NCBI GenBank assembly: GCA_003543135.1
Contig: DPJG01000015.1
Location: forward strand, 1 to 33,189
Reading direction: 5' to 3'
Length of the DNA: 33,189 nucleotides
Origin: Rheinheimera sp.
GTDB taxonomy: Bacteria; Pseudomonadota; Gammaproteobacteria; Enterobacterales; Alteromonadaceae
The position numbers and the translations under genes were made by a program. The notes under the pieces were generated by a model. That model ran no database searches and was not told the origin of the DNA. It worked only from the letters and a program-made list of their open reading frames with translations. Shown piece by piece: positions 4,531-25,846 of this stretch (within the stretch, counting starts at the first letter, position 1; each line of letters starts with the position of its first letter).

Positions 4531-5229
4531 ATGAATATGGATAGTTACCAGAAAATAGCTCAGCTTGAGGCAAGATACTGCGAAATAATCAGGGAAACCG
4601 ATTTACGCGAGTTATATGGGAATAGCCAGCTTTCGGGGGTGTTCTTAGCTTCGCCGAGTAACGCTTACTTCGAGTCGAGCAAGAAGGTTTTTATTATCGG
4701 CCAGGAAACAAGAGATTGGAGAAGGGCTAAATGTCATATAAAAAATGAATATAGCTCTGATATCAATGCCATCAGGGAGTCGATGCAGGCAACCTTAGAT
4801 TTCAATCAAAAGAAACCAAAATCCTCGAAATTTCGTCAGTTCTACATCAAAGCGTCGAATTTATTATCCAAATCAAATAGTGATCCGAAGCACTCAGCAG
4901 TTTGGACAAACCAATTTTGTATTAGCTACAAAGGTAATTCACCAGTACATTCGGATGCTTTCCCAGAAATAAAAGAGTTATCAAAGAAGCTACTCAAAGC
5001 TCAATTTGAGATTTTATCGCCAGATATCGCTATTTTTGCTGTTGGTTCCTCTCGTGATAAGTACATTAAAGAAGCTCTTGATGTTACAACGATTGATGTA
5101 ATACATCCGCGTCGCCTTTGGCACTTTAAAGTCGGGGATACAAACTGCTTCCGCTGTAATCACCCTCGATGGCATGGTGCCAATCGATACCTTGCTGAAG
5201 CATTGGAGTTGGCTAAAGCACTTACATAA
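4531..5229 (+). CDS. Hypothetical protein with weak uracil-DNA-glycosylase-like motifs (232 aa)
   Basis: Soluble 232-aa product of an AT-rich gene unlike its neighbours. VFIIGQETRDW at about 52-62 resembles the first active-site loop of the uracil-DNA glycosylase superfamily (Gly-Gln-Glu in place of Gly-x-Asp-Pro). IAIFAVGSS at about 168-176 is a second strand, and NHPRWHGAN near 210-218 occupies the place of the C-terminal His-Pro-Ser loop. These are weak resemblances; DNA repair activity is not shown. The ATG at 4531 is close to its possible ribosome site, and ATG 4537 is an alternative. A GTTGGGC core 15 bases upstream and a stop within CATAACAACGG suggest a stray integron cassette. Confidence 0.7.
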   Translation: MNMDSYQKIAQLEARYCEIIRETDLRELYGNSQLSGVFLASPSNAYFESSKKVFIIGQETRDWRRAKCHIKNEYSSDINAIRESMQATLDFNQKKPKSSKFRQFYIKASNLLSKSNSDPKHSAVWTNQFCISYKGNSPVHSDAFPEIKELSKKLLKAQFEILSPDIAIFAVGSSRDKYIKEALDVTTIDVIHPRRLWHFKVGDTNCFRCNHPRWHGANRYLAEALELAKALT

Positions 5230-5278: not shown

Positions 5279-5308
5279 TAAAAAAAGCCCCGGTTTTTAC
5301 CAGGGCTT
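5279..5308 (-). terminator. Intrinsic terminator of the TonB-dependent receptor gene
   Basis: On the - strand, AAGCCCTGG and CCGGGGCTT form a stem with one mismatch around an A-rich loop, followed by a run of seven T. It lies about 90 bases beyond the receptor's stop. The + strand copy has a poorer T run, so it could serve the upstream + strand gene only weakly. Confidence 0.85.
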
Positions 5309-5395: not shown

Positions 5396-8083
5396 TTAAA
5401 ACCTCTGGCTATAACTTAAACCCACACTGCGGCCTTGCTCGCGGCGCTGTAAAATTTCGCCTTGCTGCAGAATCTCCACGTCTTTATTCAGCAGGTTTTT
5501 TGCCGACACTTTAATGGTGCCTTCTGGCAACACATTGTAAGAGTACACAAAATCCAGCGAGTGGAATGGCTGCTCATAAGCGTCATCTTTGCCGTCGATG
5601 CCGGCAAAGGCAATACGTTTACCAAAGACGTTGTAGGTTAAGGTGGCGGTGTGCGCTTCGTTGTCAGAGTCAAAACCCAGCTGCATATTCACCACATATT
5701 TGCTGTGGCCGGTCAGCGGGCGTTTTAAGTTGGTCAGGTTGGTTTCACCCAGCGATTCAATTTCAATTTCGGATTCGCTGTACGTGAAGTTACTGACCAC
5801 AAAGAAGTTATCCATCAGCTCGCCAAAACTGCCTTCAAACATATCCAGTTTTTGCAAAGCTTCAGCTTCCACACCGTACACTTCACCGCCGAGCGCATTT
5901 CTGAATGACATCAGAAGGTTACCGTCAGAGCCTTTGAGTTCAACCGCTTCAATAGGGTTAGTTAAGTCTTTATAAAACACACCCAGGCTGTAGTTGCTGC
6001 CGCTGTCCAGATATTGCTCCCAGCGTAAGTCATAAGCGCTGATGCTGGTGCTTTTTAAACCAGAAAAGCCAATGACTTTAAAGTCGGTAATAGGGTCGAT
6101 AAAGAGCACTGGGGTCACTTCACGTAAATCCGGCCGCACTACGGTTTCAGAAAAACCAAAACGGTATTGGTTTTCTTCCGACTGCATCCAGGTCACGGCC
6201 AGAGAAGGGTAGAGGTCGTCTTCCTGACGCGGGAAGTCGCTGATATTGCCTTCAATGGCGCCTGTGGCCGGGTTCAGCGGAATAGACACCTGACGGAAGT
6301 CTTCATAACGCACACCGGCATTGACCCGCCAGGTCATGTCGAAAGTGGCTTCCACGCCGGCATAAGCGGCGTCGGTTTGCTGGGCAGCCACATAATCGTC
6401 GGCCTGGGCTGTCACGTCAGATAATAAAAACTTCTTCGCCGGGTTGCTGATATTGGCATCGGAGAAAATCGCCGAATAAGCCTGGCTTAACTCTTCGTTG
6501 CTAAAACCGCGGGTGTCCATTTTAAATCTGTTGGTACTGGCGTTACGCTGGCGTTCAAAATAGGCATAACCAGTGCTCAGGGTCAGCTCAGTGTCCCCCA
6601 ATGTCATGGGGTATTTGGCATTCCAGCTGGCGTTTTCGGTGTTGTCTTCCAAAGTACCAAACTGATAAATAGCGGCGTTGTCGCTGCGGCGCATAGTGCG
6701 GTTTTCCAGGCTGCCATCATTGGCCAGCTGGCGCACATAACGGTATTCCACTTCGTTTGGCGCATACCGTTCGGCTTTGGCGTCTGTGTATTGCCAGTCC
6801 AAAGCTAAATCGTTCAGGAAAGTCAGGGTATGACGGCCACGGATCTGATTGGTCAGCATGGTGCGTTCTTCATACAACACTGAATAATCTTCGTTTTCGC
6901 GGTTTTGTTCGTTGATGGTTTCAATCGAATCACCGGTTTTGATTTTCAGCTCATCTTTGGTGTCGGCCAGATAAATGCTGGAGGTTTCAAATCTGTGGTT
7001 TTCGTCCCATTCCAGACCAAAGTTCAGCATGCCCGACAGTTTCACCTGATGTTCGGTACCGCGGATATCGTCGTAACGGTTCAGTGGTGTTAAGTTGTTG
7101 CCCGAGCTGATGGAATAATAACGTTCCTGCTCTTTAAAGTTTTCTGAGGATTTGTCGTAACTTACACCCGCCATCAGACCAAAAACCGTCTGGCCAATGT
7201 CAAATCTGTTGCCATAAGACAGGCTGCCATCGTACTCAGGGCCAATGCTTTTTTTGCGAAAATCCATATTGCGGTTGAGCTCAAGGCCAAGGCTGCGGTT
7301 AATGGCTTCGGCTTTGGCCAGGTTGTCAGCACTGACACCCCCCAGGCCCTGGGCAATTTTCACCACATCCAGCGAACCGTACTGATCCAGCGCTTGGGTA
7401 AGGCCCGCCGATAAACCGCGCGAACCATCGTCTTTACCACGCCAGTCGTCTGAGCCGCCTGCGTACTCCAGGCCGTCGTCTGAGCTTAAGCTGTTGTAGC
7501 CGGTGCCAATAGAAAAGCTAAAAATTTCCTCGCGTGGGATACTGACGGTGCGGATATTCACATTCCCCCCACCAAAGGCGGCCGGTAATTCAGGTGAATA
7601 AGCTTTTTGTACCACCATACTTTCAATAATACCGGCGGGGAACATATCCAGCGGCACCACGTTGCGGGTTGGATCCGGGCTGGGTACCTGGGCGCCGTTG
7701 AGTAAGGTAGACGAATAACGCTCCCCTAAACCACGTACGTAAATAAATTTGTCTTTGACCAGGGTCAGGCCGGTGACGCGGCGCAGTGCACTGGCGGCAT
7801 TGCTGTCACCGGCACGGGAAATTTGTTCCATGCCTAAAAGTTCAGCCACATAAGGCTGTTGGCGGCGCTCTTCGGCTGTGGCTGCTGCCGAACTTAATAA
7901 ACGGCCTGATACATTAATACGTTCAACCTGCTCGGCCAGGGGTTGCAGTGCAACCGGCGCGGCATCCGGGGTCTGGCTTTCGGTAGCAGAGGCGGGCATC
8001 AAAACTACGGCAGCGCTGGTGGCTAAAGCCAAAAGCACACCCAGGTTCACGCGACTGTATTGAAAACTATGCTTGCTGCTCAT
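5396..8083 (-). CDS. TonB-dependent outer membrane receptor
   Basis: A ligand-gated 22-strand beta-barrel transporter of the outer membrane, energised by TonB-ExbB-ExbD; 895 aa, within the usual range. Visible: signal peptide (about 1-33, Ala-Ser-Ala end), a TonB-box-like VERINVSG at about 53-60, a plug domain (about 75-185, with YVRGLGERYSSTLLNG and a Gly-rich GGGNVNIRT strand), the barrel, and a terminal Phe (SYSQRF). There is no N-terminal carboxypeptidase-like or secretin-like signalling domain. Start ATG has AGGA about 10 bases upstream. It lies downstream of a duplicated lipoprotein gene in the same direction but has its own terminator-separated upstream region holding four 11-bp-spaced TTGTC repeats. 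Substrate unknown; context suggests a phosphorus compound. Confidence 0.93.
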   Translation of the reverse strand: MSSKHSFQYSRVNLGVLLALATSAAVVLMPASATESQTPDAAPVALQPLAEQVERINVSGRLLSSAAATAEERRQQPYVAELLGMEQISRAGDSNAASALRRVTGLTLVKDKFIYVRGLGERYSSTLLNGAQVPSPDPTRNVVPLDMFPAGIIESMVVQKAYSPELPAAFGGGNVNIRTVSIPREEIFSFSIGTGYNSLSSDDGLEYAGGSDDWRGKDDGSRGLSAGLTQALDQYGSLDVVKIAQGLGGVSADNLAKAEAINRSLGLELNRNMDFRKKSIGPEYDGSLSYGNRFDIGQTVFGLMAGVSYDKSSENFKEQERYYSISSGNNLTPLNRYDDIRGTEHQVKLSGMLNFGLEWDENHRFETSSIYLADTKDELKIKTGDSIETINEQNRENEDYSVLYEERTMLTNQIRGRHTLTFLNDLALDWQYTDAKAERYAPNEVEYRYVRQLANDGSLENRTMRRSDNAAIYQFGTLEDNTENASWNAKYPMTLGDTELTLSTGYAYFERQRNASTNRFKMDTRGFSNEELSQAYSAIFSDANISNPAKKFLLSDVTAQADDYVAAQQTDAAYAGVEATFDMTWRVNAGVRYEDFRQVSIPLNPATGAIEGNISDFPRQEDDLYPSLAVTWMQSEENQYRFGFSETVVRPDLREVTPVLFIDPITDFKVIGFSGLKSTSISAYDLRWEQYLDSGSNYSLGVFYKDLTNPIEAVELKGSDGNLLMSFRNALGGEVYGVEAEALQKLDMFEGSFGELMDNFFVVSNFTYSESEIEIESLGETNLTNLKRPLTGHSKYVVNMQLGFDSDNEAHTATLTYNVFGKRIAFAGIDGKDDAYEQPFHSLDFVYSYNVLPEGTIKVSAKNLLNKDVEILQQGEILQRREQGRSVGLSYSQRF

Positions 8084-8145
8084 CTTTATTTATTCCTGTG
8101 GGCTCACTTGGTGGCTGGGCATCAGATGCGGTGCAGCCGGCGTCA

Positions 8146-8199
8146 AATGTAGCGAACTGTTGTCTTATCAGTGTCTTGTGTTTGTCTTGCTGTTGTCAT
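8146..8199 (-). promoter_or_regulatory. Tetrameric 11-bp-phased Pho-like repeat and -10 upstream of the TonB receptor
   Basis: On the + strand four 7-base units start at 8160, 8171, 8182 and 8193, exactly 11 apart: TTGTCTT, GTGTCTT, TTGTCTT, TTGTCAT. The period and core match PhoB half-sites (consensus CTGTCAT), but the units point away from the receptor gene, the reverse of the usual arrangement. On the - strand TACATT (8151-8146) could be the -10, eight bases from the array. The spacing is seen directly; PhoB as the binder is inferred. Confidence 0.65.
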
Positions 8200-8216
8200 A
8201 AGGCCGCAGCAAAAAC

Positions 8217-8248
8217 AAAGCCGCCGGTCATCAAACCGGCGGCTTTTG
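8217..8248 (-). terminator. Intrinsic terminator after the duplicated lipoprotein gene
   Basis: AAAGCCGCCGGT and ACCGGCGGCTTT form a perfect GC-rich stem around a short loop just beyond the lipoprotein stop at 8251. On the - strand it is followed by a T-rich tract (TGTTTTTGC). It separates the lipoprotein and TonB receptor transcripts. Confidence 0.9.
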
Positions 8249-8250
8249 AC

Positions 8251-10947
8251 TTATTGGCCTAAACCAACAGTCCAGCCTTTGGTCCAGTCGCTGCTGGCAT
8301 CTACAGCACCCACAGTGGCGGATTTGCTGAAGAAGCTGTTTACAGCAGACATATCTTTTGGTGTTGTGGTGTCGATGGTGTAAATGCCATTCAGCACAGC
8401 TGCCTGATCGGCCGCCGTTTTGTTGCCTTGCTGGCCTTCAAACCATTGTTTCACTGTTTGGTTGGCAGATACTGTGCCTTTGAATGGCTCAGGGCAGCCA
8501 ATCACAGAGTGCGTCATCACCAGGGCACCTGATGCGGCCAGCGCCTGAGACTGGGCAGTTTCAATTTCCAGACACTCACCCATGCCGGTTGGGCCTGCAA
8601 TCACAAAGTTATGCAGCTGGGCATTGGTGCCGGCGCGTAACAACACACCTTCAGAGTCTTTTTCGGCCGACTTGTAGCTGTTGCCGATAATGGTCATATT
8701 GGCAATAGTCGGGTTAGAAACCGGCGTGGCCGAGAAGTTAGATGACTGGTTGTCAGCTTCAATACCCCGGTTGGCTTCGCCGTTGTTGGCATCGTGTTTT
8801 ACCAGGAAATACTGACCTTTACCGTTCCAGCCATCTGCCCAGTCCAGTGAGTCGTCACCATTGCTGGTCAAAACCACATACTTCACGTTGACAGTACCGC
8901 CGAAGAACTCAACACCGTCGTCCAGGTTCTGGTGTACCTGAATGTGGCTGACTGTCGTGCCTGCACCCACACCGGCGAAGGTAATGCCGTTTAATTCGTT
9001 GTCTTGCAGTACTTCATAACCTGCGTGTTTCACCCGCACATATTTCAGTACGCCAGAGTTGTCGTTCACATCAGCACCACCATAAGGGCCGGCGTTGCCT
9101 TCAGCTTCAATTTTACAGGCGGCCAGATTGGCCTGGTCACACTTGTTGCTTGGTGCTTTGCCCAATAACACCATACCGCCCCACTGACCGGCCGCTGTTG
9201 GTGCGCCAATCACGTCTTGCAAAGAGGTAAAGGTAATAGGGTTTTGCTGGGTGCCTTCGGCGTTAATTTTTGAACCGCGGGTCACCACCAGGAAGTCTGC
9301 ACCTGAGCGGCCATACACTGTAACGCCAGGTTGTACTGTTAAAGTGGCGGCTGTGGTGTTGTCCACACCAATACGCACCCGGCCATTTAACACATAATCC
9401 GCACCGGCCACTAAAGTGACGTTGCTGGTGATATCACCTTTGAGCTCACAGTTTAATTTACCTGTTAAAGAAGCAACTTCAGTGGTGCCGGCAGGGCAGG
9501 CAGCAATAGCAGTGGACGCATGCAGGCCGAAGGTCCAGCCTTTGGTCCAGTCTGACACCCCATCAAAAGCACCGATGTAGTCGACATCGTCAAACCAGGC
9601 GTCAACAAAGTTCGACACGTTGTAACCGTTTTTCAGTGCAGGCGAGGTTGAAGCTGGCATATAACCACCCAGCAGGGCGTCTGTGGTCATATTGCCGCTT
9701 TGTGCCATAAACCAGGCTTTTACATCCAGCAGCGTGTTGCCTTGGGCATCTTTTGGATTTTTAAAAGGTTCTTTACAGTCGATAATTGAGTTGCGCATCA
9801 GTAAACCGCCGTTTTGCGCTTGCTGGACCGACTGCTCGGTTTCAATTTCCAGACACTCGCCCATACCGGCCGGGCCTTTAATAATGGTGTTGTAAATTTC
9901 ACCGGCGGTACCGGCGCGCAGCAAAATACCTTCAGAGTCGGCGTCGGCAGATTTGTAGTTGTTGCCAAGGATGGTCATGTTGGCAATTTTTGGTTTACTG
10001 ATAGGCGTGGCAGAAAAATTACCGGACTGGTTGTCGGCTTCAATACCGCGGTTGGCTTTGGCGTCGTTTTTGCTGTGCTGGATCAGCACGTGCTGCATTT
10101 TACCTGTCCAGCCATCCGCCCAGTCTAAGGAGTCGTCACGGTTGCCGGTTAACACCACATGTTTGGCATTAACAGTACCGCCAAAAAACTCCACACCGTC
10201 GTCCAGGTTGTTGTGCACCTGAATGTAATCCACAGTGGTGCCTGAACCCACACCGGCAAAGGTAATGCCGTTTAATTCGTTGTCGGTTAATACTTCAAAA
10301 CCGGCATATTTCACCTGCACAAACTTTAAAATACCGCTGTTATCTTCCGGCTTGTCACCGCCGTATGGGCCGGCGTTCCCTTCAGCTTCAATTTTGCAGC
10401 CGGCAAGGGCGGCGGCGTCACACTTGTTGCTTGGCGCGCGGCCTAATAACACTAAACCACCCCATTGAGCGGTAGAGTCTTCATTTACTGAGCCAATCAT
10501 GTCGTTGACTGAAGTAAAAACGATTGGGCTGGCGCTGGTGCCGACAGCACGGATTTGTGAGCCACGGGCAATCACCAGATAATCTGCACCGGATTTACCA
10601 AAAATAGTGGTGCCTGGTTCAATGGTTAATACGGCGCTGTTGGCATTGTCGTTACCTACAGCAACTTTGCCGCTTAAGGCCCAGGCGATATTGGCCGTTA
10701 AAGTGGCATCTGCAGTTAAAGTGCCGCTGATTTCACAGATAGGTTTAGTTACACCGCCTAAACTGGCACCTTGTTTGGCAAAGGCCGGGCAGACAGAAGC
10801 TGGAGGTGGGGTGGGTGTTGTTGGATTGGTTGGGGTGGTCGGGCTGGTGCTGCTGCCGGTATTGACCACAATATCACCACCGCCACAGCCGGCCAGGGCC
10901 AGCGCTGAAGCCATAGCGCTTAATTTCAGAATTTTTGCAAAAGCCAT
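8251..10947 (-). CDS. Duplicated beta-helix-like outer membrane lipoprotein
   Basis: A 898-aa lipoprotein whose function I cannot name. The signal peptide ends in the lipobox LAGC (Cys21), followed by Gly, which favours outer-membrane sorting, then a Thr/Pro linker (about 30-50). The rest is two homologous halves of about 420 residues. Each carries SGADxLVxxRGS, QWGGxVLLGxAPSNKCD, IEAEGNAGPYGG, NLDDGVEFFGGTVN, DDSLDWADGW, RGIEADNQS, MGECLEIET and ends in SDWTKGWT. The Gly/Asn-rich repetitive strands look like a right-handed beta-helix. Paired Cys recur in both halves. Start chosen at ATG 10947, with GGAG six bases upstream; upstream ATGs at 10959 and 10974 remain possible. Preceded by a tandem PhoB-box array. 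Confidence 0.85.
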   Translation of the reverse strand: MAFAKILKLSAMASALALAGCGGGDIVVNTGSSTSPTTPTNPTTPTPPPASVCPAFAKQGASLGGVTKPICEISGTLTADATLTANIAWALSGKVAVGNDNANSAVLTIEPGTTIFGKSGADYLVIARGSQIRAVGTSASPIVFTSVNDMIGSVNEDSTAQWGGLVLLGRAPSNKCDAAALAGCKIEAEGNAGPYGGDKPEDNSGILKFVQVKYAGFEVLTDNELNGITFAGVGSGTTVDYIQVHNNLDDGVEFFGGTVNAKHVVLTGNRDDSLDWADGWTGKMQHVLIQHSKNDAKANRGIEADNQSGNFSATPISKPKIANMTILGNNYKSADADSEGILLRAGTAGEIYNTIIKGPAGMGECLEIETEQSVQQAQNGGLLMRNSIIDCKEPFKNPKDAQGNTLLDVKAWFMAQSGNMTTDALLGGYMPASTSPALKNGYNVSNFVDAWFDDVDYIGAFDGVSDWTKGWTFGLHASTAIAACPAGTTEVASLTGKLNCELKGDITSNVTLVAGADYVLNGRVRIGVDNTTAATLTVQPGVTVYGRSGADFLVVTRGSKINAEGTQQNPITFTSLQDVIGAPTAAGQWGGMVLLGKAPSNKCDQANLAACKIEAEGNAGPYGGADVNDNSGVLKYVRVKHAGYEVLQDNELNGITFAGVGAGTTVSHIQVHQNLDDGVEFFGGTVNVKYVVLTSNGDDSLDWADGWNGKGQYFLVKHDANNGEANRGIEADNQSSNFSATPVSNPTIANMTIIGNSYKSAEKDSEGVLLRAGTNAQLHNFVIAGPTGMGECLEIETAQSQALAASGALVMTHSVIGCPEPFKGTVSANQTVKQWFEGQQGNKTAADQAAVLNGIYTIDTTTPKDMSAVNSFFSKSATVGAVDASSDWTKGWTVGLGQ

Positions 10948-10999
10948 CTTCTTCTCCATAGAGCCAGAAACCAAAGTCAGGGATTAAAAAACTGAGCTG

Positions 11000-11055
11000 A
11001 AGGTAAAAGAAGGCTGTGACTGTTTTGTGACAGAAAATCGACACTGTGATGACAT
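11000..11055 (-). promoter_or_regulatory. Tandem Pho box and -10 for the duplicated lipoprotein gene
   Basis: Read on the - strand, four half-sites lie at an exact 11-bp period: ATGTCAT (11055-11049), GTGTCGA (11044-11038), CTGTCAC (11033-11027) and CAGTCAC (11022-11016), with linkers CACA, TTTT and AAAA. They point toward the lipoprotein gene. A -10-like TACCTT (11005-11000) begins 10 bases after the last half-site, as at known PhoB promoters where the box replaces the -35. Predicted, not shown, to be PhoB-activated. Confidence 0.8.
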
Positions 11056-11105: not shown

Positions 11106-11123
11106 ACTTCATAAAACTGTCAT
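11106..11123 (+). promoter_or_regulatory. Additional isolated Pho-box-like sequence
   Basis: ACTTCAT, linker AAAA, CTGTCAT: two half-sites 11 bp apart, pointing to phoB but about 235 bases before its ATG. No -10 is visible 10 bases downstream. It may be a second PhoB site in the shared regulatory region between the lipoprotein gene and phoB. Confidence 0.6.
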
Positions 11124-11288: not shown

Positions 11289-11322
11289 GTTTCATAAAAT
11301 TGTCATAATGGCAGCAGATACT
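11289..11322 (+). promoter_or_regulatory. Pho box and -10 of phoB
   Basis: GTTTCAT, linker AAAA, TTGTCAT (11289-11306) form a good Pho box, and GATACT (11317-11322) follows 10 bases later as -10. The ATG of phoB is 35 bases beyond. This is the classic autoregulated phoB promoter layout. Confidence 0.85.
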
Positions 11323-11357: not shown

Positions 11358-12044
11358 ATGTCGAGAAGAATTTTGATAGTGGAAGATGAAGCACCAATCC
11401 GCGATATGCTGTGTTTTGTGCTGGAGCAAAATGGTTATCAGGCCAGCACGGCCGGTGACTTTGATGCTGCAATCAACCAGCTGGTCGAGCCTTATCCGGA
11501 TTTAGTACTGCTGGACTGGATGTTGCCTGGTGGCAGCGGTATTCAGATCGCTAAAAAGATGAAACAGCACGAGTTAACCCGCGCTATTCCGATCATTATG
11601 ATCACAGCCCGCGGTGAAGAAGAAGACAAGGTGCGGGGGCTGGAAGTGGGCGCCGACGATTATGTCACCAAGCCATTTTCACCCAAAGAGCTGATGGCGC
11701 GCATTAAAGCGGTGATCCGCCGGGTGGCACCTACCAGCCTGGATGAAGTGATTGAAGTGCAGGGCCTGAAGCTGGATCCGGTGTCACACCGCGTGATGGC
11801 AGCGGAAAATCCGCTGGAAATGGGGCCAACTGAGTTCCGTTTACTGCACTTTTTTATGACGCATCCGGAGCGGGTTTACAGCCGCGAGCAGCTGCTGGAC
11901 CATGTTTGGGGCACCAATGTGTATGTGGAAGACAGAACAGTGGACGTGCATATCAGAAGGTTACGTAAAGCCATTTCGGTGGCAGGACATGACAGATTAG
12001 TGCAGACAGTACGTGGCTCTGGCTACCGTTTTTCGGTAAAGTAA
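11358..12044 (+). CDS. phoB: Phosphate regulon response regulator PhoB
   Basis: OmpR-type DNA-binding response regulator, 228 aa (E. coli PhoB 229). Receiver domain about 1-120: acidic pair E9-D10, phosphoacceptor D53 in LLDWMLPG, and the conserved Lys in DYVTKPFSP. The C-terminal winged helix (about 130-228) contains the [13 protein letters not shown] and [10 protein letters not shown] segments typical of PhoB recognition. When phosphorylated by PhoR it binds Pho boxes and activates phosphate-starvation genes. Start ATG has AGG five bases upstream. Its promoter carries a Pho box. phoR follows in the same direction after 122 bases rather than the usual tight overlap. Confidence 0.97.
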
Positions 12045-12166: not shown

Positions 12167-13501
12167 ATGCGGTTATTACTCTCCAAACGCACAATAGCGC
12201 TGCGGCTGATTGGCCTGGCAGCGCTGGCTTTATTCTTCGGCTGGTTGTTTAACCTGGCCACCGAATTTTTATTATTGTTGTGTGTCGGCATTATTGGCTG
12301 GCATTACAAGCATTTGTTTTTACTGGACAAGTGGCTTTGGCGTGACAGAAAACTGTCGCCGCCGGCCGGTGATGGCAGCTGGCAACAAGTGTTTGATGGT
12401 ATTTATTACCGTCAGCGCAAATCCCGCAAGAAAAACAAAGAATTACGTGCCTTAGTGCGCAGGTTCCGCGACGGCGCTGAAGCTTTACCCGACGCTATAG
12501 TGGTGCTCAGCAACGACTGGACCATCGTCTGGTGTAACAAACTGGCGCAGCAACTGGCCGGTTTACGCTGGCCGATGGACGAACGCCAGCGTATTGATAA
12601 CCTGATCCGTAATCCGGAGTTTCAACAGTTTTTGCAACTGCAGCAGTTTGATACTGCGCTGGAGCTGGTGTCGCCTTTAACCGAGGATGTGACACTGGAA
12701 TATCGCATGCTGCAATACGGTGAAAAACAACATTTGTTGATCATCCGCGACATTACCCAGCTAAAACAACTGGAGCAAATCCGCAAAGATTTTGTCGCCA
12801 ATGTGTCGCACGAGCTGCGCACCCCACTGACAGTGCTGCAGGGTTATCTGGAAATGATGGACGCCAGCAGCATGCCGCCAGAGCCCGTCTGGCAAAAAGC
12901 CCATGGGGTGATGCTGGATCAAACCAAACGCATGGATGCGCTGGTGCAACAGCTGCTGACGCTGTCGCGCATTGAAGCAGCCGCCAAAGTGCATTTTGAT
13001 GAAGTGGTGGATGTGCCGGCTATGCTGGCGCTGCTGGAGCAGGAAGCCCATAGCTTAAACCGCGATAAACAGCATCAGCTGGTGTTCCGGATTGATCCTG
13101 ACTTAAAAGTGACAGGTATCACCGAAGAGCTGCGCAGTGCTTTTTCTAATTTAATTACCAACGCCATTAAATACACCCCCGATGGCGGCAGCATTGAAGT
13201 GGTGTGGCAGCGTGAACACCAAAAAGCGCTGTTCAGAGTCACTGACAATGGTGAGGGCATTGCCGCCCATCATGTCAAACGTTTAACAGAAAGGTTTTAC
13301 CGGGTCGACGAAGCCCGCACCCGCGCCACAGGCGGGACTGGTCTTGGCCTTGCAATTGTGAAGCATGTATTGTCGCGCCATCACTCCAGACTGATGATTT
13401 TCAGCGAGCCGAAACACGGCAGCAGTTTTTCTTTTGCCTTGCCACCTGAACTGGTATTGCCGGTGGCAACAACAAAAAGCAACCGTAAATCTTCGGCCTG
13501 A
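12167..13501 (+). CDS. phoR: Phosphate regulon sensor histidine kinase PhoR
   Basis: Membrane histidine kinase that phosphorylates PhoB and responds to Pst activity through PhoU; 444 aa (E. coli 431). Two N-terminal hydrophobic segments (about 10-47) without a sizeable periplasmic loop, a charged region, a PAS domain (about 95-200), the DHp helix with NVSHELRTPL and phosphoacceptor H215, and an HATPase domain with N-box NLITNAIKYTP, DNGEGI and GGTGLGLAIV. AGGTG precedes the ATG. It is transcribed with or after phoB; a hairpin lies between them. Its 3' end converges on the gene for an orphan solute-binding protein 45 bases away. Confidence 0.96.
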   Translation: MRLLLSKRTIALRLIGLAALALFFGWLFNLATEFLLLLCVGIIGWHYKHLFLLDKWLWRDRKLSPPAGDGSWQQVFDGIYYRQRKSRKKNKELRALVRRFRDGAEALPDAIVVLSNDWTIVWCNKLAQQLAGLRWPMDERQRIDNLIRNPEFQQFLQLQQFDTALELVSPLTEDVTLEYRMLQYGEKQHLLIIRDITQLKQLEQIRKDFVANVSHELRTPLTVLQGYLEMMDASSMPPEPVWQKAHGVMLDQTKRMDALVQQLLTLSRIEAAAKVHFDEVVDVPAMLALLEQEAHSLNRDKQHQLVFRIDPDLKVTGITEELRSAFSNLITNAIKYTPDGGSIEVVWQREHQKALFRVTDNGEGIAAHHVKRLTERFYRVDEARTRATGGTGLGLAIVKHVLSRHHSRLMIFSEPKHGSSFSFALPPELVLPVATTKSNRKSSA

Positions 13502-21710: not shown

Positions 21711-21810
21711 GTGCAAGCAGTGCATCGTTGTACAGTTAGCCGCTGGCTCAGGCCATTGATTTTTCAGCCATTCTGACATTTTTGTGTCAACTGTGTGACA
21801 AAAACGCTTT

Positions 21811-21844
21811 ATGTAATATTTCTGACATATTCCTGCTCTATAGT
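21811..21844 (+). promoter_or_regulatory. Probable Pho-dependent promoter of pstC
   Basis: ATGTAAT (21811-21817), ATTT, CTGACAT (21822-21828) is a degenerate Pho box. TATAGT (21839-21844), a good -10, follows after 10 bases. Further TGACA/TGTCA units at 21773, 21784 and 21795 also have 11-bp spacing but mixed sense. Confidence 0.55.
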
Positions 21845-21880
21845 TTGCAGCATCCTAAAGTCAGAAGTGGATGTGCAACA

Positions 21881-24169
21881 ATGCAACCTAACCAAGCCAG
21901 TTCAGCCGGCACGCAGACCGAACTTCAGTCGCTGTTGCCGAGCGGTGAACGCCGCGCCCGGTTACGCCGTTGGCGTAGTCTGAAAGATCAAATGTCCCGT
22001 TATGGCATCGCCTTTGCCGGTATCAGTGTGGTACTGGCATTTACCACTATTTTTGTGTACCTGTTCTCAGAGGTGGGGCCGATTTTTTCTTCGGCATCAA
22101 CTGAGCAGCAGCAGACTTATCAAAGCCCGGAACAAAACGCTATTTTTGCCAACCTGGAGCGTTATGGTGAAGTAGGGCTTGTGGCCAATAAAGCCGGTGA
22201 GTTGCAGTTTTTTAATGCACAAACCGGTGAGCCCGGGCAAAAACTGCAGCTGGCCTTGCCTGAAGGCGCCAGCATCACCAGTTTTTCCCGGGGTGAACCC
22301 CGCTCCGGCATTATTGCTTTTGGTTTATCCAATGGTCAGGTGCTGGTGGCCAAACACGAATACAACTTAAGTTACCCTAATGATAAAAGGCAGATAGTGC
22401 CTGTGGTGACTTATCCGCTGGGTGAAACACCTTTACAGCTGGACGCCAAACAACAGGCTATTTTATCGCTGGCGGTGCAGGAAGGTCCTTCAGGCACTGC
22501 TATTACTGCATTTACTGCCGATGGCCGTTTGTCTTATAACCTGTTTGAAGCCAAAACCGAGTTTTTAACCGGCGAAACGACCTTAGAACGCAGTGAATAC
22601 CAGCTGCCGGATGCGCCAAAGACAGTGTTAAAAATGCTGGTCGACACCACATTACAAAACCTGTTTGTGGCTGACACTCAGGGCAATATTCATTATTACG
22701 ATATCCGCGACCCGGCATCAGCCCGTTATGTAGAAGCCATCAGTGCGGTAAAAGCTGGTCAGCAGCTAACGGCACTGGAATTTTTGGTGGGCTCGGTGTC
22801 GCTGATCGCAGGTGGCAGTGACGGTTCTCTCAGTCAGTGGTTTTTAGTGCGTGATGAACACAACAACTTCCACTTAAAACATATCCGCGACTTTGAGCAA
22901 CATCCGGCAGCTATTGTGCAGATTGAACCTGAATATTCGCGCAAAGGTTTTATGGCCATTGATGCCAAAGGTTATCTGGGCATTCATTACGGCACCTCAG
23001 CCCGCACCCTGATGCTGGAACCTTTGGGTGAACAACTGCAACCTGCGCGTATTGCCATTTCACCAATCAACCAGAGTTTCCTGGCTTTTGATAAAAACGG
23101 CACAGTGCAGCATTTTGCACTGGACAATGCCCATCCGGAAGTCAGCTGGAAAGCGATGTGGAACGAAGTCTGGTATGAAGGTCGCGCTGAAAAAGACTAT
23201 ATCTGGCAGGCATCTTCAGGTTCTGATGAATTTGAAGCCAAAATGAGCCTGGTGCCTTTGGCGTCGGGCACCTTAAAAGCGGCATTTTTTGCCATGTTAT
23301 TTGCCACGCCGCTGGCTCTGATGGGCGCTTTATACACAGCGTATTTTATGGCGCCGGCATTAAGAGGCAAGGTCAAACCTACCATTGAAGTGATGGAAGC
23401 TTTGCCTACAGTGATCCTGGGCTTTTTAGCCGGCCTGTGGTTAGCGCCTTTTATTGAATCTTATTTAAGTGCAGTGTTCTCCATTTTACTGCTGCTGCCG
23501 CTGATGATGATTGCAACTGCTTATCTGTGGCGTTATGCCCCGGAAAAGCTGCGTTTTGCACTGGGGCATGGCTGGGAAGTGGTGGTGCTTATTCCGGTCA
23601 TCATGCTGCTGATTTACCTTTGTGTACAGGTAAGCCCGGTGATTGACCACATGTTTTTTGCCGGCAATTTACGTCAGTGGCTGACTGACAACGGCATTAC
23701 TTATGATCAGCGTAACGCTCTGGTGGTGGGCATTGCCATGGGCTTTGCGGTTATCCCCAATATCTTTTCGATTGCTGAAGATGCCATTTACAACGTACCA
23801 AAACACCTGACGCAGGGCTCATTGGCACTGGGTGCAACACCATGGCAAACCATGATGAATGTTGTGTTGCCAACAGCAAGCCCGGGCGTATTTGCCGCCG
23901 TGATGGTGGGTTTTGGCCGTGCCGTGGGCGAAACCATGATAGTTCTGATGGCGACAGGTAATAGCCCTATTGTGAACTTTAACCTGTTTGAAGGCATGCG
24001 CACTTTGTCGGCCAATATAGCGGTAGAACTACCGGAAACTGCAGTGGGTAGCACTCACTTTAGGGTGTTGTTCCTGGCTGCGCTGGTGCTGTTGGTCTTT
24101 ACCTTTATTTTTAATACTGTCGCCGAGCTGATTCGGCAGCGTTTACGTCAACGCTTCAGTAACCTGTAA
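21881..24169 (+). CDS. pstC: Phosphate ABC transporter permease PstC with periplasmic propeller-like insert
   Basis: Inner-membrane permease subunit, 762 aa, more than twice the E. coli length (319). A cytoplasmic N-terminus (about 1-40), a first membrane segment (about 42-65), then about 390 residues of periplasmic sequence with repeated strand patterns such as VANKAGELQFF, VADTQGNIHYYD and AGGSDGSLSQWF that look like a WD40-type propeller, then the standard permease (about 460-762) with the EALPTVILGFLAGLW and [21 protein letters not shown] coupling motifs. Start ATG 21881 has AAGTGGA about 10 bases upstream; the frame runs open to 21782 without a site. pstA follows after 15 bases. Confidence 0.93.
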   Translation: MQPNQASSAGTQTELQSLLPSGERRARLRRWRSLKDQMSRYGIAFAGISVVLAFTTIFVYLFSEVGPIFSSASTEQQQTYQSPEQNAIFANLERYGEVGLVANKAGELQFFNAQTGEPGQKLQLALPEGASITSFSRGEPRSGIIAFGLSNGQVLVAKHEYNLSYPNDKRQIVPVVTYPLGETPLQLDAKQQAILSLAVQEGPSGTAITAFTADGRLSYNLFEAKTEFLTGETTLERSEYQLPDAPKTVLKMLVDTTLQNLFVADTQGNIHYYDIRDPASARYVEAISAVKAGQQLTALEFLVGSVSLIAGGSDGSLSQWFLVRDEHNNFHLKHIRDFEQHPAAIVQIEPEYSRKGFMAIDAKGYLGIHYGTSARTLMLEPLGEQLQPARIAISPINQSFLAFDKNGTVQHFALDNAHPEVSWKAMWNEVWYEGRAEKDYIWQASSGSDEFEAKMSLVPLASGTLKAAFFAMLFATPLALMGALYTAYFMAPALRGKVKPTIEVMEALPTVILGFLAGLWLAPFIESYLSAVFSILLLLPLMMIATAYLWRYAPEKLRFALGHGWEVVVLIPVIMLLIYLCVQVSPVIDHMFFAGNLRQWLTDNGITYDQRNALVVGIAMGFAVIPNIFSIAEDAIYNVPKHLTQGSLALGATPWQTMMNVVLPTASPGVFAAVMVGFGRAVGETMIVLMATGNSPIVNFNLFEGMRTLSANIAVELPETAVGSTHFRVLFLAALVLLVFTFIFNTVAELIRQRLRQRFSNL

Positions 24170-24184
24170 GTTGGAGTCATAGTG

Positions 24185-25846
24185 ATGAAAGCGTGGTTTA
24201 GAACAGGAACGCCGTGGATTTGGTTAAATGCCGGTGCTATTGCCCTGAGTCTGGTGATGGTACTTGGTGTGCTGGGCCTGATCACTGTGCAGGGTGCCAG
24301 TCATTTTTGGCCGGCCGATTTGCAGCAGGTCAAACTGACCAAAGCTGATGGCAGCACACAGATGATTCTGGCTGAGCTGGTCAGAACTGAAGAAGTCAGT
24401 GCCACTGTGTTGAAAGATTCAGGCATTAAGCTTGAAACCCAGGCAGAGTTTTATCAGCGCCATTTGTTAAAAATGGGTAACCGGGATTTATACGGCCGTG
24501 ACTTTAGCTGGTTTCTGCAGCCGCAGTTATCAGACTGGTCACAACCAGAAAATGCCATTGTGATTGAGCGGCGCGAGTGGGGTAACTTTTATGGTTTCCC
24601 ACTGCGGTTGTTGCAGGAGGGGCAGGTTGTGGCAGAAGGCGACAAATTGTTGACTGAGCTGCAGCAACGTATTGCCCGCGCCAATGAAATTTACCAGCAA
24701 ATTGCCCTGATTGAAAAAGGCGATATCGGCCGTATCAACAAAAAGCTGGAAGCCTTGCGGCTGACAGAAAGGAAACTGCAGCTCGCACAGGCCGATGCAG
24801 CAACTTTGCAGGCACACAAGGCCGAAGCTTTAACAGAAAAAGCGGCGCTTGATGCTGAATACGCTGCGCTGCAACAACAATTAGAGCAGCTGTACGCCGC
24901 AACCAAAAGAGACGTTTTGTTGGTGCAAAGTGCCGAAGGTAAAGAGCTGGAAATTAGCCTTGGTAACATAGTCCATGCGCATTTCCCGAATGCCATGAGC
25001 ACCACAGACAAACTGCAGCACTATGTTGCTGCAATCTGGAATTTCCTCAGTGACGAACCGAGGGAAGCCAACACTGAAGGTGGGATTTTCCCGGCGATTT
25101 TTGGCACCGTCACTATGGTGATCCTGATGTCGATTATCGTTACACCTTTTGGTGTGCTGGCGGCTATTTATCTGCGTGAATATGCCAAAGATGGTCCGCT
25201 GCTGCGGGTGATCCGGATTTCGGTCTACAACCTGGCCGGTGTTCCTTCGATAGTGTATGGCGTATTTGGTCTGGGCTTTTTTGTCTACATTATGGGCGGC
25301 AGTATTGATGCGCTGTTTTATCCGGAGTCTTTACCTTCGCCAACTTTTGGTACCCCGGGTTTATTCTGGGCATCTTTGACCCTGGCGTTATTAACTTTGC
25401 CCGTGGTGATTGTATCGACCGAAGAAGGTTTGTCACGTATTCCAAGCACCATCCGGATGGGCAGTCTGGCGTTGGGCGCGACCAAGTCTGAAACTTTATG
25501 GAAAGTGGTGGTTCCGCTGGCAACGCCGGCCATGATGACTGGTTTGATCCTGGCCATTGCCCGCGCTGCCGGTGAAGTGGCACCGCTGATGCTGGTTGGG
25601 GTGGTGAAACTGGCGCCAACTTTACCTGTGGACGGTAATTTTCCCTTTGTGCATTTAGATCAAAAAATCATGCACTTAGGCTTCCATGTTTATGATGTGG
25701 GTTTCCAGAGTCCGAACGTTGAAGCGTCACGGCCGCTGCTTTATGCCACAGCATTGGTGTTGGTGATCCTGATTATGGTGCTGAACCTGGCCGCCATTCA
25801 GTTGCGCAACAGGCTGCGGGAAAAATACCGTAGTGAATCAGACTAA
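24185..25846 (+). CDS. pstA: Phosphate ABC transporter permease PstA with coiled-coil insert
   Basis: Partner permease of PstC, 553 aa against 296 in E. coli. First membrane segment about 10-34, then a long periplasmic region. About 160-240 is an Ala/Leu/Glu-rich heptad pattern without Pro or Gly, strongly suggesting a coiled coil. The permease domain spans about 300-553 with [22 protein letters not shown] and [14 protein letters not shown], the ATPase-coupling region. GGAG at 24173-24176 suits ATG 24185 (eight bases) better than the GTG at 24182. Between pstC and pstB in one operon; its stop overlaps nothing, and pstB starts 73 bases later. Confidence 0.93.

Follow-up and report, generated by a model that had tools for sequence, protein, structure and literature searches.

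The closest described relatives of the two genes considered here are ElpS (CC0170) and the TonB receptor CC0171 of Caulobacter (Le Blastier et al. 2010; PMC2996285) and the lipoproteins FI, FII, and FIII of Flavobacterium (Lidbury et al. 2020; PMC8115612). Both serve here as a reference for a lipoprotein gene and a TonB-dependent receptor (TBDT) gene lying side by side in a 33,189-nt stretch of Rheinheimera sp. (contig DPJG01000015.1, the whole of which is called the window). ElpS is a palmitoylated surface lipoprotein made specifically under phosphate starvation, and it responds to phosphate, not iron; elpS adjoins cc0171 and type II secretion (T2SS) genes, both ElpS and Cc0171 were recovered in stalk extracts of phosphate-starved cells, and the authors already proposed joint phosphate mobilization (PMC2996285). 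FI, FII, and FIII are 31–36% identical to ElpS, two of them are encoded downstream of TBDTs, and FII lies in the phoBR operon; strong induction by phosphate depletion is reported, as is repression when nitrogen or iron is limiting, and FI and FII were modeled on polygalacturonase (PMC8115612). A 2024 study of Caulobacter assigns T2SS, along with various TonB receptors, to the PhoB regulon (PMC11208175).

A first-pass annotation of the window, made from the sequence alone, had called the pair an uncharacterized system. This description has to be withdrawn, as homologues have been in print since 2010 (PMC2996285, PMC8115612), and the ElpS and FI/FII papers mean that the idea behind it was already largely published for relatives. 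The stronger statement that the pair has no known relatives was likewise dismissed, since genome and paper searches returned a large family with published members. For the gammaproteobacterial form with two repeats, no paper was recognized by title or opening of the abstract in the limited collection searched, and none turned up on Rheinheimera with PhoB and TonB; the accessible text of a study of Brevundimonas and Polaribacter from the Baltic (PMC9671461) gave no lead on the pair.

By its sequence, the window lipoprotein belongs to the ElpS family, as a tandem-duplicated form, and the system is of the known ElpS/FII-TBDT kind. Both genes are on the minus strand, with phoB and phoR diverging from them on the plus strand. 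The genes and the parts of the lipoprotein are as follows.

8251..10947, minus strand: ElpS-family lipoprotein gene with two repeats, 898 aa from ATG 10947
10885..10896, minus strand: lipobox LAGC, with Gly after the lipidated Cys, read from the translation and similarly placed in most close relatives
9511..10791, minus strand: repeat 1 (residues 57–483), predicted right-handed beta-helix, with invariant acids D253, D254, E257, D275, D276, D279, and E307
8254..9498, minus strand: repeat 2 (residues 488–902), predicted right-handed beta-helix, with invariant acids D680, D681, E684, D702, D703, D706, and E734
5396..8083, minus strand: TBDT gene, 895 aa, without signaling extension
11358..12044, plus strand: phoB, response regulator
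12167..13501, plus strand: phoR, sensor kinase

The family assignment rests on a comparison with the protein of locus L219, which is 36% identical to the window lipoprotein over 436 aa (E = 2e-65) and is followed by a TBDT 30% identical to that of the window over 837 aa (E = 2e-81). We take the L219 protein to be ElpS or a close orthologue because every published ElpS feature that was checked matches (GTG start, LAGC at 17–20, Asn38, the TBDT gene next and then gsp, i.e., T2SS, genes); L220 fits the published description equally well. The Caulobacter and window loci thus share a homologous lipoprotein and a homologous TBDT in the same order, a lipobox, and a link with phosphate starvation. They differ in that ElpS has one repeat and the window protein two, and in that T2SS genes follow the pair in Caulobacter whereas phoB-phoR lie beside it in the window, where no T2SS genes were found among the genes scanned. 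A consensus Pho box is present in only one of nine T2SS-linked loci, and the window has one. We read the adjoining T2SS genes as a feature of a lineage rather than as a criterion of the ElpS family. PUSIII and PUSIV of Flavobacterium johnsoniae are alike in combining a TBDT with a lipoprotein, and FII carries a pectin-lyase-fold signature and belongs to the phoBR operon, but the paper places the lipoprotein genes there downstream of the TBDTs (PMC8115612). Here the comparison ran over Bacteroidota relatives other than Fjoh_0546, which were found beside TBDTs.

The most likely start of the lipoprotein is ATG 10947, which we favor because a GGAG stretch lies upstream and most close relatives use the same start, with the lipidated Cys at +21; ATG 10959 and TTG 10974 on the minus strand are alternatives. 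Each repeat is predicted as a right-handed parallel beta-helix, so the first-pass view of a duplicated, probably beta-helical lipoprotein stands, and so does its view that the protein is unlike SusD, as no SusD family is among the Pfam and NCBIfam matches. At E = 0.001 those collections gave no family for the lipoprotein; a search at E = 0.1 returned two unrelated weak matches for P0002, and no SusD appeared among the families matched by 42 relatives. A sequence search of the PDB gave no significant match, no paralogue was found in the organism's own genome, and two fold comparisons, of which 50 rows were shown, list no SusD structure, although an absent row excludes nothing.

Repeat number varies within the family. 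Lipoproteins of ~1,360 aa with three repeats occur in L065, L134, L135, and L136, and L137 has one repeat in an otherwise window-like locus, which suggests loss or gain of a repeat within one lineage. Conservation extends over the residues that follow the lipidated Cys (10850–10887 in the window, and in relatives), although the linker behind them varies. Many Alteromonadales copies read CGG(G)D[IL]xx, and many alphaproteobacterial copies carry a VASPGEG-like stretch there; these residues are possibly a surface-export signal. A subgroup (L072, L186, L187, L189, and L190) has an N-terminal extension, no lipobox that we could find, and no adjoining TBDT; its L190 copy lies near pst and phoU matches.

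The distribution of the family was obtained from several samples. A single scan of genome contigs gave 32 loci from Rheinheimera, Arsukibacterium, Alishewanella, Aliidiomarina, Glycocaulis, and gammaproteobacterial metagenome-assembled genomes. The lipoprotein family was found in 33 of 369 genomes in a sample of the class, 31 of 299 in a sample of the phylum, 97 of 118 in its own bacterial family, and 39 of 99 in another family, taken as Caulobacteraceae, all counts including weak matches up to E = 0.001. A plasmid collection held 21 records with relatives, of which nine were opened, three of them Bacteroidota. We read 120 homologous loci at length; 40 of the 97 matching own-family genomes were fetched at length, as were 40 further regions from the class and phylum searches. 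These loci were selected, not drawn at random, and share ancestry, so that the counts below are not independent. The short loci L034–L063 and L073–L113 were left uncounted, and L188, a 22-aa fragment, was dropped from all counts.

A same-strand TBDT lies within 2.5 kb of the lipoprotein gene in 113 of the 120 loci, in lipoprotein-TBDT order in 100 and reversed in 13. Sequence distances among lipoproteins (last repeat used) and among TBDTs are correlated (r = 0.86, n = 112, with the partial TBDTs of L020, L172, and L181 dropped), and the partial correlation given phoB distance is 0.74 (n = 40). Pairing at this frequency in two phyla, together with correlated distances, is hard to explain as a chance neighborhood, and a conserved partnership of the two proteins is supported by the sequences. 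Plug and barrel domains were matched in the window TBDT, but no signaling domain; these domains, the lipobox, and the gene order bear out the first-pass description of a receptor without signaling extension and a large lipoprotein beside phoB-phoR. Recurrent partner sets were phoB at >50% identity (41 loci), TonB-ExbB-ExbD-DUF3450 matches (35 loci), and T2SS genes (9 loci). In own-family loci phoB was present in 12 of 40, against an expectation of ~0.2 for 19.5 kb out of a genome of 4 Mb, and a plasmid of Alteromonas macleodii carries phoB, phoR, pstS, an oxygenase gene, the lipoprotein gene, the TBDT gene, and a TonB cluster in one run.

Two further associations were seen near the pair. A 2OG-Fe(II) oxygenase (PF13640 in L065:11494-12285) is nearby in nine loci (L065, L115, L121, L132, L133, L134, L161, L162, and L169), and in six of them it sits between pstS and a lipoprotein gene of the phoBR-linked type. 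In Aureibacter (L068:17466-18665), a PI-PLC-domain gene lies a few genes past the TBDT-lipoprotein pair.

For Pho boxes we searched for TGTCAT-N5-TGTCAT, which we take to be the PhoB consensus (TGTCA-type half-sites phased by 11 bp). With up to two mismatches allowed, the window holds 13 such sites against 2.66 expected. Regulatory features around the pair are the following.

11016..11054, minus strand: Pho array of the lipoprotein promoter, four half-sites in 11-bp steps, with 6-mers from 11016, 11027, 11038, and 11049
11107..11123, plus strand: Pho box in the shared intergenic region, facing phoB and largely kept in aligned relatives
11290..11306, plus strand: Pho box of phoB
8161..8199, plus strand: half-site array upstream of the TBDT gene, inverted relative to it
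8217..8246, minus strand: terminator-like hairpin of 13 pairs between the lipoprotein and TBDT genes
5285..5308, minus strand: terminator-like hairpin 3′ of the TBDT gene

The four half-sites of the lipoprotein array (TGTCAT, TGTCGA, TGTCAC, and AGTCAC) follow at exact 11-bp steps, and the array is among the best-kept intergenic parts in eight sequences, the window and seven relatives, with the second half-site degenerate in L006–L008. Scanning 300 bp upstream of the lipoprotein gene, we found at least one Pho pair at spacing 11 in 77 of the 120 loci, against 4–25 loci at ten other spacings and 2–34 loci for eight permuted hexamers, 34 coming from a one-base shift of the same repeat. Control upstream stretches had a Pho box in 65 of 709 cases, a rate above the shuffled expectation, the controls being taken from the same loci and often near Pho genes. 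A Pho box was present in 35 of the 41 loci with phoB nearby and in 42 of the 79 without it (Fisher P = 3e-38 for 77/120 and 2e-19 for 42/79, both assuming independent loci, which these are not). Pho control of the lipoprotein gene is thus supported by the sequences.

The first-pass annotation had placed phased PhoB-like half-sites upstream of both genes and read both as candidates for Pho control. For the lipoprotein gene, with four half-sites largely kept in relatives, we agree. For the TBDT gene the case is weak: its array is inverted and among the seven aligned relatives recurs only in L002 and L003, both very close genomes, and the homologous Caulobacter TBDT was reported as constitutive (PMC2996285). 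Over 150 bp upstream of TBDT genes the Pho signal was near background (2/25, 0/7, 0/13, and 2/61 in four groups), which makes the window TBDT array a local feature. We do not take the TBDT half-sites as proof of Pho control over a single operon, given this inverted and rarely shared array and the hairpin between the genes. The terminator scan as a whole was near chance (11 sites against 9.1 expected), so the case for the hairpin at 8217..8246 is its 13-pair stem, together with the similar hairpins that aligned relatives have in the matching position.

We consider it fairly probable that the pair is an ElpS-type outer-membrane scavenging system for phosphorus, in which a Pho-induced lipoprotein hands its ligand to the TBDT. 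At low phosphate PhoR would activate PhoB, which would bind the phased half-sites and switch on the lipoprotein gene. After export and lipidation, the product would be presented on the external side of the outer membrane, as has been shown for Caulobacter ElpS. There the invariant acidic cluster of each beta-helix repeat may bind or cleave a ligand that contains phosphorus, possibly by way of a divalent metal, and the ligand or product would pass to the neighboring TBDT for TonB-energized import into the periplasm, where phosphatases and PstS would take over. The TBDT itself would probably be made at a lower, less regulated level, through terminator read-through or from its own promoter. We favor an uptake pair for phosphate starvation because of the TBDT pairing, the neighboring TonB systems, and the Pho box; most likely the lipoprotein is a surface capture protein or enzyme handing a phosphorus compound to the TBDT, while uptake, ligand, and complex are inferred.

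The working mode would resemble SusCD or BtuB-BtuG, with a beta-helix partner in place of SusD or BtuG. SusC/SusD and PusC/PusD are alike in pairing a TBDT with a surface lipoprotein, a likeness of working only; SusD is alpha-helical, whereas the window lipoprotein is a predicted beta-helix that matched no SusD family. BtuG of Bacteroides, a beta-propeller, differs in binding cobalamin, and no sequence relation to it was shown.

Several observations weigh against this interpretation. Seven of the 120 loci have no same-strand TBDT match within 2.5 kb, and 43 have no Pho box, including eight of the nine T2SS-linked loci and all three Bacteroidota loci opened; in two of these Bacteroidota loci the lipoprotein gene follows that of the TBDT, and the stretch tested may therefore miss the promoter. 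The terminator-like hairpin between the genes argues against tight cotranscription. In Caulobacter, deletion of elpS left alkaline phosphatase activity unchanged, cc0171 was reported as constitutive, unlike elpS (“data not shown”), and intracellular phosphate did not change significantly on a shift from rich to poor medium; ElpS is also released by proteolysis, a poor fit to a permanent lid (PMC2996285). The accessible text of the ElpS and FI/FII accounts names no substrate and reports no interaction, transport, or ligand.

A serious rival gives the lipoprotein an enzymatic role of its own at the surface: as a beta-helix hydrolase or lyase it would use the invariant acids to free phosphate or phosphorylated fragments from polymers, with the TBDT importing the product; we regard this as a real possibility, though short of probable. 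The seven acids per repeat are conserved at 1.00 (rounded) across 191 repeats with model coverage >75% and score >60, and DD-G-x-[ED] stands 21 residues from the next DD in each of the 164 of these repeats that match the motif. This equals the spacing of the GH28 motif, counted by eye in one sequence and a lead only. Foldseek ranks PL6 alginate lyases highest against the lipoprotein model (E = 1.5e-5), carbohydrate-active beta-helix enzymes fill many VIA-align rows, and the published models of FI and FII were based on polygalacturonase (PMC8115612). However, beta-helices also occur in nonenzymes, and NosD and Vag8 are among the same VIA-align rows; whole-chain TM-scores in Foldseek are low (0.17 for the best row), for which our guess is the uncertain relative placement of the two predicted helices (pTM = 0.68); and refolded or immunoprecipitated ElpS showed no alkaline phosphatase activity (PMC2996285). 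We do not assign the protein to GH28 itself, a profile comparison with ten GH28 proteins giving a probability of 3% with the acids unaligned, and the organism's own genome having no GH28 match.

The lipoprotein might instead activate or anchor secreted phosphatases, as was proposed for ElpS, with the TBDT an independent receptor kept nearby for other reasons. Overproduction of ElpS raised extracellular alkaline phosphatase while ElpS itself was inactive, and cc0171 was reported not to be phosphate-regulated (PMC2996285). T2SS genes also accompany the pair in the nine loci mentioned and in five of ten longer loci of the presumed Caulobacteraceae, one of which is already among the nine. Nevertheless, the effect required overproduction and was not seen on deletion (PMC2996285), and an independent receptor sits poorly with pairing in 113 of 120 loci, in two phyla, and with correlated distances. 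We consider this explanation unlikely.

A third explanation, that the pair imports inorganic phosphate itself, for example as a metal-phosphate, in place of a phosphate porin, appears to us improbable. The porins OprP and OprO are passive and provide a Pho-regulated entry for phosphorus across the outer membrane; the window pair differs in having a TonB receptor, and the organism's own genome yielded no full copy of such a porin, only one fragment at 20.1 bits, under the cut-off. Within the same bacterial family, strong Porin_O_P matches (E < 1e-20, our own cut) occurred in 7 of 20 genomes lacking the lipoprotein and in 15 of 95 bearing it (P = 0.06, treating the samples of 118 and 116 genomes as the same draw), but this difference, a weak lead, is not significant, 15 genomes have both, and a 900-residue receptor plus a 91-kDa partner at the surface make a large apparatus for a free anion. 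Most TBDTs import iron chelates or glycans, and a pair serving such a nutrient could lie beside phoB by chance; the opened Pseudoalteromonas and Bacteroidota copies have no annotated adjoining Pho genes (plasmid gene tables being incomplete), and in Pseudoalteromonas CF6-2 the opposite strand holds a siderophore cluster two genes beyond the pair. This we think very improbable, with a Pho box in 42 of the 79 loci that have no phoB nearby, a Caulobacter homologue that responds to phosphate and not to iron (PMC2996285), and Flavobacterium homologues that nitrogen or iron limitation does not induce (PMC8115612).

Beyond phoB-phoR, the window contains ppx, ppk, pstS, pstC, pstA, pstB, phoU, and a gene of the TIGR00153 family; a further, Pit-like gene scored under the curated cut-offs. 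PstC and PstA are apparently long (795 and 554 aa; 21782–25846), and their permease match falls within the C-terminal portion. An orphan open reading frame of 232 aa (4531–5229), situated between ggt and the TBDT gene, has no Pfam or NCBIfam match.

As a tentative generalization, which we hold as possible rather than probable, ElpS-type beta-helix lipoproteins may be the surface partners of a distinct class of TonB transporter, apart from SusCD and BtuBG, in Proteobacteria and Bacteroidota, forming a main active entry route for an unrecognized phosphorus substrate, with repeat number (one, two, or three helices) tuning how multivalently the substrate is captured or processed at an acidic site that is invariant and possibly carries a metal.

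Little is known of how bacteria that lack phosphate porins bring phosphorus compounds across the outer membrane, and in the accessible literature the ElpS lipoprotein has been without a settled function since 2010. The tight TBDT pairing, the Pho box even away from phoB, and the invariant acids yield concrete predictions that can be tested in an ordinary aquatic genus. Should the compound bound or cleaved be an organic phosphorus compound, the pair would represent a widespread route of active uptake, relevant to phosphorus cycling in aquatic habitats and in the rhizosphere.

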